Positions 11,072-16,007 of a stretch of DNA of 64,000 bases are shown here, piece by piece. Made by a program: the position numbers and the translations under genes. How positions within the stretch are numbered: the stretch's first letter is position 1; each line of letters opens with the position of its first letter. The notes beneath the pieces were generated by a model that worked only from the letters and a program-made list of their open reading frames with translations, had not been told where the DNA came from and did not search any database. Source of the DNA: Bugula neritina (taxonomy: Eukaryota; Bryozoa; Gymnolaemata; Cheilostomatida; Bugulidae); the NCBI GenBank assembly GCA_964035545.1, contig OZ037769.1:3627001-3691000 (forward strand), read 5' to 3'.

Positions 11072-14000
11072 ATGTCTGAAAAGAATCAGTATAACACCGA
11101 CCTTCCCCCTTCTTATGAGGTCAGTTCTGGATTCTCCCAGAATGCTTATGCCACACCAGGCTCTGTACAAGCTGGTTATGCCACACCAGGCTCTGTACAA
11201 GCTGGTTATGCTCCAGTTGGATATTCCTCCGCCTCTGGTCATGTGACTACTCCGCCCACTTCATTTCCGGCATGTTCTCCGCGAGTAGGAATGACTCATC
11301 AGCCAGGAGGGCCCTTGCCAGAGGTGAGCTAATAGGATATACATTGCATGCTGATGTTGACCAGGAAACAGCTGCGGTATACGGGTTAGAGTTTTAGCTT
11401 AGTGAACATGAAGTCATGGGTTTGATCGCCAGTAATTGCCATTAGTGATGTTAGAAAGAGCGTCCAGTTATAATTGCTCTTGTGTCACATATGAATAAGT
11501 CCTTAGCTCTCTATAAAAATAACCTTTTTCATCATGGGTTCTTTAGGAGATAGTGACTATAAACTCATGACCTTGACCAGCGAGACTCATTTTTTACTAC
11601 AGACAACATGCAAATAAAGCAATGGATATTAAACATTGTTTATTTTTTGTGGATTTTATTTTGTGAAACTAATACTTTTAGATACAGTCTTCTGCAAAGC
11701 TCAGCATCTTTTATTGATTTCAGAATAAGTACCATGCAGCTTTGAAAAACATATTAAATCAGTTTAATATTGTACATATTGAAAATCTAAAGCTATATAC
11801 AATAAGATACATCTATAATTACATTTGATATAATAATTATATGGCATAGTAGGAAGCTAAAGCCACTGAAACAGAGTTGGTGATATGCCATATGAACATG
11901 GAATAAAAATTAATAGTTATAAATAATAGAACTCTCAACATAGATATAATTTTATAGAGAATATATATTAGTAAAATCTTTATATTGTAGAAGTATGCAA
12001 GTTTTAGTATAAATCCTTTTAATCAAAACAATTGTTAAAGGTAATTATAAGAAATAGATTGCAGTTTGCCGTGACTTTGATAATCAATAAAATGCTAGCA
12101 GTTAACTATAGCAGTTTACTAAAAATATGAAGATAGAGGAATACAGGTTTGTGCTATGTAAACAGTTGAAGCAGATAAAATTAAGCCAGTGTTTGCACTC
12201 TGGTTAAAATGAATAATAAGCACTGCTAAATTATTTATCATAAGAATTATTATGCTGTTGACATATAAAATGCTCAATACATTATGAATACTCTTTATTA
12301 AAAGCTTAAAACTCTCTCTTTTTCTATTTTAAGGCATATCAGAAAATGGCTCAGTGCTGGTTTATTACTGCCGTTGTTACCTGCGTATTCTTCTTTCCTC
12401 TTGGGATTCCAGCAGCAATGTTTTGCCACAAAGCAAAGAAAGCAGCAGAAAGAGGAGACAACTTTGAATATTTCAAGTACCTAAAGATTGGTAGAGGTCT
12501 GGCAGGAGCTGGTATTGGTTTATCCATAGCTGTTATAATAAACTTATCAGTTCAAGTGAGTGTCAATAATAGCTTTAATATGAGTGTATGTTTATTAAAT
12601 GGCTGAAGCTATCTCTCTCTATCGCCATATATGCAACTCTTTATGTATACAAAAATACAGGCTCAAGCATGAGCGCGCGCGCGCACACACACACACACAC
12701 ACACACACACGCACGCACACACACACACACACACACACACACACACACACACACACACACACACACACACACACACACACACACACACACACACACACAC
12801 ACACACACACACACACACACACACACACACACACACACACACACACACACACACACACACACACACACACACACACACACACACACACACACACACACAC
12901 ACACACACACACACACACACACACACACACACACACACACACACACACGTATATATGAATATTTTAACATGTAGCTTCCACTTAGACTTGGCGGTCGAGA
13001 AACAATCATTAAGGCTCCTGATGGGCTAGATGTATACTATGCACCTGCAACTGAAACAAAGTGGGACAGTGAGTGTTTATACTGAAATAATAGAGATACA
13101 ATCTTTACTGGCCAATCTCTTCATCCAGCTATATTATATCTTGTTTGGCCAGTCAGCAAATCGTCAGATTGACTTTTTTTAATGGCATGACAAGCGTGCA
13201 TATCAAGAATGTCATGAGTTTGTGATGTCATAGAATAATGTGTGTCACTACCGGTTGCATGGCTGAGAAAGTGTGTTTAAAGCTTCAGCAAGAGTACTAA
13301 ATGTAAGCAAATGTGTCAAATAGGTCTCAGGTGATGTGATAATTTGAGCCAGATAGGTGTCCATGTTTTACCAATATACTTCACAGAATTTTTCTTGAAG
13401 TATTGTATTAGGAATTGCTTTATGTTGCTTTGTAGATATGGGGACTTATGTTGGCTGTTTTTACAACTCTCCGAAGTTGTTTAGCGAGCCTCCAGTAACC
13501 TTAGTAGAATCATCTGTATACTCATGTCTATCGAATTGTTCTTTTAGTGGTAGGTATATAGTATAAGCTAGTATATACAACTGTAAATAAACTACTATAT
13601 ATAATTACAATGAAATATTTTGCTTAAATTAATTCAAGTGACATGTTTTGAGTGTCTAAGTTTCTGTATACGCAGTAGCTAGTTATTATAGGCAGTAAAA
13701 CAAAATGAATTTTATGGTGAACGTTATGGTAGAGTATAAAATGATTAAGTATGAGTTTGAAGGTTTTTTTGTGGCTTGTAAATTATATCAACAGCTTGGT
13801 TTTTACTATACAATTGGTGTGGCTTGTTTCTTTTAATGCTTTAATACAATTTGCTCTTCTATTTATAATTTCTTATTTAATGTCTTGAAATATAGCATTT
13901 CTGTAATGAACTTACTTTGAACTGAAGCAATTAAGTTTCAACAGTTAAATATTACTAAAAATGAATATCTTTTCAAAATTTTACCAAGTGCGTGCTTTTA

Positions 14001-16007
14001 AAGTACGGTATATATTGTAATATTTCCATTAAATGCAACGTTGAAACAAATTCTAGAATTAAAAAACCATGTAAAAAAGATTAATTGAGTACACATTTAT
14101 TATGCAATGTGAAGTTTATATGGTATTGAAACTTGAATTTCTAAATTTAAAAAATTGCATCTCATCAAATAATGAAGCTCAACATAATTACTAAAAAGCA
14201 AGCCCAGTGTGAAAAATATAAAAAAAATGTAATACAGGCCTATAATATAACTGGTTAAAATGAATTAATTATTACTTTCCATAAGAATTTAATAATTAAT
14301 GTATAGTATAACATGTATTTGATATAAGTAAATTCTGACATCTGTTTTTCTCCTAGGCTATAGCTATGCTGGACTAGAGGACTCAAACAAATGTTATTGC
14401 GGGGACTCTTACAACTATCAGGCGGTGAAGTTGGAGAATTACGAGTGTGACTCTTATTGTTCTGATAAGTCATATGGATGTGGGGGAGATAACAATCAAA
14501 TCACTATATACAACACAAATTATCTAGGTCAGGCAAAGAACTATGCTATTTATATAAATGTCACCCAAAAGCACGTTATATCTTATTATGATGTTTTTTT
14601 TATTTTCAGTAAAATATTACAAACCTACAAACACAACTGCTATATTTTTAAATGTTTTTTACATGAATTTTAATAGTTGAAAATTTTCACACCAAAACAC
14701 TCAATACTACTGACTCTAGATGATGAATTCATTAGTTTGAAGTCATAAATTTTGCGCAGAAAATAAAATAACTGACTAGTTTTGCATATATAATCTTTGC
14801 AGGTGTGCTAGCTATAACTTTCTTTGCTTTAATAAGCTTTTTCCTCTACCTAAAAAGTTTTACGTTGAACATTTTTACAGAACAAAAATAACATAATTAC
14901 TGTGCAGTGATTACGTGCAATGTCTGCAACAATTATAAAAACTATTTGCAAAAAATGTTTTATTTCTCTTTGCAATATATTGACTATGATTGCATAATTA
15001 CCAGAACAGGGTTATACCTATATTTTGCTTTATAGTTTGCTTTGATAAATTATGAAATTATATGAACCAACTGTTGATTTACCGCATGCTTGATAATTAT
15101 AGGCTGCTACAGTGGAAGTCTGGCACATAAAATGGACATAGGAGATAAAGTTAAGCCGGAAAAATGTCTGTTGGCGTGTCAGAAAAAAGGTGTGATAAAA
15201 GTTATATGCATAAACATATATTTTGTCAATTTTAGGTTTGAAATTTTAGAGTAATAAGTTTATAAGACTATAGAAGGGTGGCATAAGCTAATGTTACTAA
15301 TGATACTAATTTTTCAAATCAATAAGAATTTTTTTACTTTCTTATATCAGTTGAACACAATAGTACAAGTATATAGTACTTCTTGATAGTAAAAAAAATG
15401 TTTTATCAAAAAGTATTCATTGAAGAAAATGTCTATTATTTATGTATTATTGTTTTTTTTGTCCTACAAAATTATGTGAAAATTCGAAAAAACTATTCTG
15501 GATAATTCATAATTATATTAACTATTATTTCATGTTTAGCAATCAATACAACAGTTATATAGGTAAACATAAGTATATCAATATAAACAATATTGTGCAA
15601 AAATAAAAATGGCATCTGAGTGGGAAGAAACCTATATTAACAGAGCTTGCTGCTAATTAGAGTCTAGTTGACTTAAAGTGCAGCAACTAACTTGAGCAGC
15701 TTTAACCTAATTTTTCCAACATATAAAAAATAAAAAGTCATTTGTGTAGACTTTTCTAGTCATATAAAAATAATTGTCTTTAATTGTACTGAAAAATGTA
15801 GGAGATGCATACATAATGATCAGACTAATTTTATTTGTTGCAGGATATGATTATGTTGGCCTAACAGATGGTGGAAAATGTTTCTGTGATTATTCCCTCT
15901 ATCGGAATTCACAAATAAATGATAACTCCTGCAACTACACATGTATAGCTAGCCCCAGCAGCATTTGTGGTTCAAAGACAGCATCAGTTGTTTATAAAAT
16001 ACAATGA
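11072..16007 (+). CDS. Gene B: CD225 (dispanin)-WSC-WSC membrane protein
   Basis: Seven exons: 11072-11323, 12334-12555, 12975-13068, 13436-13549, 14357-14527, 15103-15189 and 15844-16007. Together they make 1104 nt, 367 aa. Residues 1-84 are hydrophilic, with DLPPSYEVS (a PPxY WW-ligand motif at 12-15) and two ATPGSVQAGY repeats. Residues about 89-157 are the CD225 domain (QCWFITA..., FFPLGIPAA, AERGD, GAGIGLSIA) with two hydrophobic segments. Residues about 192-284 and 285-365 are two WSC domains with eight cysteines each (YVGCFY, KCYCGDS, GCGGD; GCYSGS, KCFCDY, SICGS). There is no signal peptide. By analogy with IFITM proteins, the N-terminus should be cytoplasmic and the WSC modules extracellular. 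Introns 1-2 are phase 0 and introns 3-6 phase 1; all are GT-AG. The start was chosen because ATGTCTGAA is conserved in all four copies. An AATAAA at 16144 could direct polyadenylation. Confidence 0.9.
11362..11570 (+). mobile_element. tRNA-derived SINE in intron 1 of gene B
   Basis: Orthologous insertion to 4495-4709 and 19175-19380. The tRNA-like head and the 'ccagttataattgctcttg' body are preserved, and it ends near 'tataaactcatga'. It was inherited by duplication. Confidence 0.7.
12672..12948. repeat. (GC)n/(CA)n microsatellite in intron 2 of gene B
   Basis: A short (GC)n run passes into about 265 bp of almost pure CA repeat, with one 'cgcacg' interruption near 12710. It lies between exons 2 and 3. 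The matching place in C has only 'cctgcacgcgcacgcacatg' and in A a short 'cacgcacacacacg', so this tract expanded in B. Long frames across it (poly-His/Thr or poly-Cys/Val) are artefacts. Confidence 0.95.
15537..15720. repeat. Interspersed repeat in intron 6 of gene B (also C and intergenic)
   Basis: The sequence beginning 'agcaatcaatacaacagtt' and containing 'aaaaatggcatctgagtggg' recurs in intron 6 of C (about 23115-23300) and, diverged, at about 38030-38200. A fragment occurs near 58105. The last two are outside the gene family, so it is an interspersed element of unknown class. Confidence 0.5.

Follow-up and report, generated by a model that had tools for sequence, protein, structure and literature searches.

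Dispanins outside the IFITM group are generally known as small membrane proteins with a short C-terminus. IFITMs are likewise small membrane proteins that end in a short C-terminus, which lies outside the cell in the favoured topology of IFITM3, and the N-terminal PPxY motif of IFITM3 docks NEDD4 (PMC13194588). WSC modules bind beta-glucan in some fungi, and the WSC module of human Kremen1 contacts a protein, Dkk1 (PMC9024836). Here, we describe a gene family of the bryozoan Bugula neritina that appears to unite the CD225 and WSC modules in one chain. The genes lie in a window of 64,000 nucleotides (C5:3627001-3691000, on contig OZ037769.1), which is part of an array of approximately 220 kb. 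Their order is a head, usually with a PPxY motif, followed by a CD225/dispanin module, a short linker, and one to four WSC modules, with the intron phases of one gene. This combination of dispanin anchor, PPxY head, and WSC ectodomain appears to be a layout not yet described. The literature search returned no paper combining CD225 with a WSC domain, none joining IFITM, WSC, and domain architecture, and none on bryozoa and the WSC domain; subscription papers were mostly outside its scope, and a description elsewhere is possible. In infected Fredericella, another bryozoan, a CD225/dispanin protein was down-regulated, and the term 'WSC' does not occur in that article (PMC7460649).

Structure and domain content of the window genes

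The spliced model of gene B consists of seven exons joined by GT-AG introns with phases 0, 0, 1, 1, 1, and 1. Its product of 367 aa has no internal stop and comprises a PPSY-bearing head, a CD225-like double membrane segment, a linker, and two eight-cysteine WSC modules, encoded as follows.

Gene B exon 1, 11072..11323, + strand: N-terminal head, 84 aa, with an LPPSYE motif; phase 0 donor GAG/gtgagc
Gene B exon 2, 12334..12555, + strand: 74 aa with the CD225-like double membrane segment, whose hydrophobicity peaks at residues 97-115 and 139-157
Gene B exon 3, 12975..13068, + strand: juxtamembrane linker, ending in ETKW
Gene B exon 4, 13436..13549, + strand: first half of WSC module 1
Gene B exon 5, 14357..14527, + strand: second half of WSC module 1
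Gene B exon 6, 15103..15189, + strand: first half of WSC module 2
Gene B exon 7, 15844..16007, + strand: second half of WSC module 2 and stop codon

At the sequence level, the assignment of the cysteine-rich modules to WSC (PF01822) is certain. Pfam placed two WSC domains in gene B (E 3.8e-26, 91.5 bits) and scored 81.4 bits in gene D, against a cut-off of 27.8, and eight cysteines were counted in each module of B (residues 197, 220, 224, 240, 242, 258, 262, and 269 in WSC1; 286, 306, 310, 326, 328, 343, 347, and 355 in WSC2). Among solved structures, the WSC pair of B was matched best by Kremen1 (four sequences, E 4.9e-6 to 8.6e-6), followed by the yeast Wsc1 head 7PZ2 (1.1e-4) and a fungal-type chain (0.027).

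The membrane segment was provisionally assigned to CD225 (PF04505), which matched all 15 CD225-type exons compared at E up to 10 (14 of the 21 found in this genome and one from a Bugula protein). A profile of these 15 exons matched three PDB sequences, namely PRRT1 (2.1e-5), the only natural chain, and two designed proteins (0.015 and 0.12). The curated CD225 cut-off of 27.1 bits was exceeded by 4 of the 19 array exons (E, F, g2, and L), which are also the four array exons among the 33 matches listed in the whole-genome search; the chain of E scored 34.4 bits together with four WSC modules (tidied model) and that of L 32.7 bits together with WSC (partial model). Hydrophobic peaks were tested on B and E, where the latter has them at residues 63-81 and 106-124, and a basic loop between the two segments, C-terminal to the head, was read from the sequence. 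The first segment carries a CCCLPLG-type core in E and F and is without the double cysteine in B, C, and D. Several scores weigh against the CD225 assignment. The cut-off was not reached in B (E 6.8e-4, 20.1 bits), D (21.1 bits), O (17.8 bits), or three Bugula neritina proteins (16.5, 23, and 19.3 bits), and 15 of the 19 array exons fell under it and were unlisted in the whole-genome search. DUF4190 (PF13828) outscored CD225 in B (E 1.6e-5) and D, yet stayed below its own cut-off; it was kept as a weak name for the segment because it matched 9 of the 15 exons, compared with 15 for CD225. The Pfam matches of B and D at E up to 10 were limited to WSC, CD225, DUF4190, and MpPF26.

The other copies in the window are listed below.

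Gene C, 18882..23585, + strand: intact, seven exons as in B (18882-19133, 20139-20360, 20520-20613, 20986-21099, 21898-22068, 22677-22763, 23422-23585)
Gene D, 26402..32255, + strand: intact, seven exons as in B (26402-26653, 28279-28500, 29261-29354, 29489-29602, 30359-30529, 31611-31700, 32089-32255)
Gene E, first seven exons, 60264..63623, + strand: head, CD225 above the Pfam cut-off, linker, WSC1, and WSC2
Copy A, 4202..6452, + strand: truncated pseudogene with one stop each in exons 3 and 4 and a deletion that fuses exon 4 to the 3' flank

Exons 1-4 are all that remain of copy A, whose two stops and deleted exons 5-7 ruled it out as an intact gene. Gene E encodes about 505 aa or more with four WSC modules, WSC3 and WSC4 lying past the window end, and its first seven exons match those of B in pattern and phases. 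The initial annotation had proposed three intact copies and a diverged paralogue of the same layout. We take these to be B, C, and D plus E; E shares the order of head, CD225, linker, and WSC, but has four WSC modules instead of two. The two complete eight-cysteine modules claimed for B were confirmed, and the domain claim on the spliced proteins held for WSC, but CD225 fell short of its cut-off in B and D.

The same annotation had read the CD225 and WSC parts as one gene, which our analysis supports; separate genes appear unlikely. Intron phases are conserved across A-E, and intron 2 measures 144 bp in A, 159 bp in C, 289 bp in E, 419 bp in B (of which 232 bp are a CA repeat), and 760 bp in D; in A and C it is therefore too short for a second promoter plus a secretion signal. 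In B, C, D, and E, the sequence from the CD225 exon to WSC1 contains no ATG followed by a hydrophobic stretch, and the heads of B and E do not begin with a hydrophobic segment either. As a positive control, all four WSC-only genes of the array that were scanned show the start MKVLYLQTLCI upstream, two of them with one further candidate start each; the starts and the WSC exons of these genes are separate predictions, and the scan covered these four and not the WSC-only places at ctg 15026, 226072, and 229582. A tryptophan closes the linker, 1-3 residues ahead of the WSC exon, in 14 of the 18 models read (B, C, D, E, F, g1, g2, L, M, N, O, P, and two second-locus genes, with H, I, J, and K unresolved), a count in which the guide sequences themselves contain that tryptophan. 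It is the short intron 2 of A and C, the fixed phases, the lack of a signal-peptide start before WSC1 in B-E, and the purifying selection described below that argue for a single gene.

The alternative is that separate, adjacent CD225 and WSC genes were joined in error. Its support comes from a stop that unspliced exon 2 of A-D meets approximately 9 to 17 residues into intron 2, from an ATG-hydrophobic start ahead of WSC1 in L (one) and M (two, overlapping) among the 6 of 19 genes covered by the scan (B, C, D, E, L, and M), and from the status of the joined models as genomic predictions. It also counts against the single-chain reading that the three Bugula neritina proteins with both parts (P0003, P0007, and P0008) are automated models; P0003 and P0008 jump from CD225 to the middle of WSC1 and skip the linker, and their exon joins there are doubtful. 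We rejected separate genes, which we regard as most improbable, on the basis of the short introns of A and C, the missing secretion signal before WSC1 in B-E, and the second locus, which repeats the CD225-then-WSC order of 17 of 19 array places; three Bugula neritina protein models also contain both parts.

Array, relatives, and evolution of the copies

A genome of 216 Mb in 295 contigs was searched, and the array survey spanned 234 kb (C5:3597001-3831000), yielding 19 CD225-type exons and 79 WSC half-exon matches. The starts of the CD225 exons, given as the position on C5 minus 3597000, are as follows.

First part of the array: g1 9877, g2 17516, g3 25447, A 35516, B 42334, C 50139, D 58279, E 90836
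Middle part: F 102701, G 107987, H 117555, I 125610, J 137936, K 146822, L 154778, M 163048, N 175221
End of the array, both on the minus strand: O 209154, P 221434

A WSC match precedes the next CD225 exon in 17 of the 19 cases, the exceptions being A and G; the WSC remnant of copy A was seen on rebuilding that copy and not in the survey. Within the stretches modelled, 13 of 19 genes are stop-free with CD225 and at least one complete WSC module (B, C, D, E, F, H, J, K, L, N, O, P, and g1), where exon 1 of L was not found and the linkers of H, J, and K are not resolved. The models of I and M contain one stop each, g2 is unsure, and g3, A, and G are damaged. The number of WSC modules ranges from one, as in F, to four. 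A second locus 3.3 Mb away (C5:260-275 kb) holds two more CD225-WSC genes with four WSC modules each, which, together with the array, bears out the stable family that had been proposed. The spliced aligner was guided by D, E, or P0003 sequences, whose exon pattern it therefore favours, the tryptophan of the linker included. In H, I, J, and K, the linker came out as mini-exons or doubtful ones, and no reliable exon 1 emerged for L and M; the CD225-exon donors of M, N, O, and P showed no single consistent phase and were not used.

Further CD225 and WSC loci were observed in the genome. The array also contains four WSC-only genes, each preceded by a conserved start that resembles a signal peptide (C5:3784371-3794634). 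Other large groups of WSC exons, among the matches listed, occur at C3:15.15-15.90 Mb, C4:23.06-23.12 Mb, and C8:5.81-5.89 Mb; the genome-wide WSC list is partial, with 150 of 253 candidates scored. Seven CD225 exons at C4:17284410-17308516 are 34-46% identical to that of P, with no WSC match nearby among these 150 candidates. On the minus strand of C6:15074001-15080000 (local 3281-4774), a CD225 segment in a single 498-aa open frame is followed by approximately 400 residues that are largely Ser/Thr-rich and mucin-like, a dispanin with a large presumed ectodomain. Within the window, a dispersed repeat of approximately 200 bp occurs at five sites (4495-4709, 11363-11565, 19175-19377, 28544-28768, and 39604-39819), namely in intron 1 of A, B, and C, in intron 2 of D, and once outside these genes. 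A direct duplication of approximately 3 kb (44288-47445 and 47970-51037; 81-85% identity) is without a CD225 or WSC match, and a tandem repeat with a period near 110 bp lies at 54839-55263. The window gave no Rfam match at the gathering score and no hit in a tRNA scan.

In the protein database, one query region returned six proteins at E up to 1, of which only P0003 spans CD225 and WSC, and another returned P0003, P0007, and P0008 at E up to 10; all three are CD225-WSC proteins of Bugula neritina. In the database, Pfam assigns these three nothing but WSC, and two carry the name 'LIPI'; their CD225 part had thus gone unnamed. P0007 contains the linker and a whole WSC1, its one WSC module. Segments of P0007 and P0008 are 70-93% identical to their best array matches (listed from 70% up), and P0003 shows lower identity in the head and CD225 and up to 89% in WSC. 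None of 2153 candidates reached E up to 1 in a search with the gene B protein. The suggested lead to sponges or cnidarians was rejected, as the only proteins of this layout returned were from Bugula neritina; the search requires shared five-residue words, and absence from other taxa is therefore weak evidence.

Purifying selection is seen between B and C, where dN/dS is about 0.1 in the WSC part (dS 0.19, dN 0.02), 0.13 in exon 1 (dS 0.18, dN 0.024), and 0.17 in exon 2 (dS 0.11, dN 0.018), and the linker differs by one change. Between B and D, dS rises from 0.08 in exon 1 to 0.24 in exon 2 and 1.03 in the WSC part (dN 0.20), and the corresponding values for C and D are 0.12, 0.21, and 1.15, respectively. 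The B-D linker has a dN of 0.39 versus a dS of 0.31 over 32 codons, too few for a claim of positive selection. Approximately 1.3 kb of upstream flank is 94% alike in B and D, as are exon 2 and a few bases around it at 92%, and intron 1 gives no alignment. Because the heads and flank are near-identical, the ectodomain is far diverged, and intron 1 is unalignable, a recent replacement or conversion of D's head is probable, its ectodomain being old. In a tree of 38 WSC modules, part of those found, the 18 even-position modules split from all others (99/99); the ectodomain therefore appears to evolve as a two-module unit. The second modules of B, D, and K group with fourth modules at 90/85, below the support level that the tool stars; this points to a four-module ancestor whose middle pair was lost.

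A candidate surface receptor and competing readings

PPxY occurs in 12 of the 13 heads read and [LP]PxY in all 13, which are 12 heads from this genome and one from a Bugula protein, with C and J not counted apart; copies of one array are not independent. The PPxY counts of I (5), K (6), and P (5) lie above all of 2000 shuffles, and those of O, the Bugula protein, N, and F were reached in 3, 15, 57, and 112 shuffles, respectively. The motif proposed for the head recurs across the family, but the single PPSY of B, reached in 230 of 2000 shuffles, is not beyond chance. WW domains are to be expected in an animal genome, and this one gave 19 matches at E up to 1e-5. By analogy with IFITM3, the head may recruit NEDD4-type ligases. 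Against this link, chance can account for the PPxY motifs of B, D, g1, H, and g2, E has LPNY in place of a strict PPxY, and the repeats could presumably be low-complexity tails of the XYPPX type.

We marginally favour a tandemly expanded family of single-chain surface receptors, with WSC modules outside and a cytosolic PPxY head that recruits WW-type ubiquitin ligases; topology, ligand, and ligase are predictions. If the family follows the topology favoured for IFITM3, the hydrophobic segment nearer the head would dip into the inner leaflet and the second would cross the membrane. The head, where the PPxY motif lies, would stay on the cytosolic side, and the disulfide-rich WSC modules would reach the outside without a signal peptide, in a type II-like dispanin anchor; in favour of this are the basic loop between the two segments and the sequons, of which the WSC part holds two of three in B and all six in E. 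WSC pairs would bind a surface ligand, which may be a glycan or glycoprotein of microbial or self origin, the head would recruit NEDD4-type WW-domain ligases, and this would tie ligand binding and clustering to endocytosis and receptor turnover. As the array grows and sequence passes from copy to copy, some heads would stay uniform while ectodomains diversify. A point against this topology is that the topology of IFITMs is itself debated (PMC13194588). The family lends itself to testing the disputed topology of dispanins, since disulfides and N-glycans on its WSC modules would require an outside C-terminus. CD225 as the anchor of a multi-module ectodomain, predicted in 13 stop-free models of the array, would be a new use of an ancient module, and bryozoans gain a candidate receptor family.

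Other readings, which are not mutually exclusive, concern what the WSC part does. The initial annotation took it for glycan-binding heads, which is not established, as the WSC module of Kremen1, the best structure match, contacts Dkk1 (PMC9024836). The WSC modules might instead bind a protein partner or each other, in a Kremen-like or homophilic manner, as a co-receptor or adhesion molecule. We consider this unlikely: the best solved relatives by sequence are Kremen1 chains, ahead of 7PZ2, but Pfam found neither the kringle nor the CUB domain of Kremen here, the ectodomain being WSC only. Binding of Kremen to Dkk and LRP5/6 also speaks for it, as do the aromatic surfaces of adhesin domains, which can give homotypic contacts (PMC9024836). 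One to four modules on an anchor would suit an adhesion tether, a static link of the cell surface to the zooid cuticle or glycocalyx in which the head controls trafficking only, and fungal WSC modules belong to cell-wall sensors (PMC9024836). However, at least 13 stop-free copies and the divergence of the ectodomain (B-D dS about 1, dN 0.2) exceed the needs of a uniform tether, which makes this reading rather improbable.

A restriction factor of membrane fusion, IFITM-like and with an accessory WSC part, would fit the CCCLPLG-type core of E and F and a PPxY head like that of IFITM3 (PMC13194588). We hold it to be very improbable, given that the ectodomain makes up most of the chain and that B, C, and D miss the double cysteine in the first hydrophobic segment. 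Within the receptor model, a more specific and speculative proposal is that colonial bryozoans use the array to recognise symbionts or to tell self from non-self. Its genes would then be a multigene family of dispanin-anchored receptors in which the signalling heads are uniform and the WSC pairs have diversified. Such a locus, which we think very improbable, would be analogous in role to Alr of Hydractinia and the histocompatibility genes of Botryllus.

Comparison with described systems

The CD225 segment resembles that of PRRT1/SynDIG4, matched at chain residues 225-286 of 306. This protein and other proline-rich dispanins have a long proline-rich N-terminus before CD225, as here, but PRRT1/SynDIG4 has no WSC ectodomain and its chain ends approximately 20 residues past the matched segment. 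Kremen1/2 are likewise animal surface receptors with WSC, and Kremen1 is the best structure match of the WSC pair of B; they differ in their kringle, and Pfam did not find the combination of kringle, WSC, and CUB in B and D. Kremen has a CUB domain and a single-pass type I layout and, to our knowledge, no dispanin anchor. The sialate:O-sulfotransferases WSCD1/2 share WSC (weak database match P0006, E 1.6e-4) and have an N-terminal membrane anchor ahead of it, but contain a sulfotransferase domain (PF00685), with CD225 not listed. Fungal Wsc1-type wall sensors have the opposite orientation, with an N-terminal WSC after a signal peptide, and we know of none with CD225. Their likeness to the Bugula proteins is a WSC head on a membrane protein (PMC9024836). 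IFITM3 shares the N-terminal PPxY, the CD225 module, and the favoured outside C-terminus (PMC13194588), but the CD225 segments of B and D are below the Pfam cut-off. IFITM3 is also a protein of approximately 130 aa with a short C-terminal domain (PMC13194588), whereas gene B encodes 367 aa and gene E approximately 505 aa or more.

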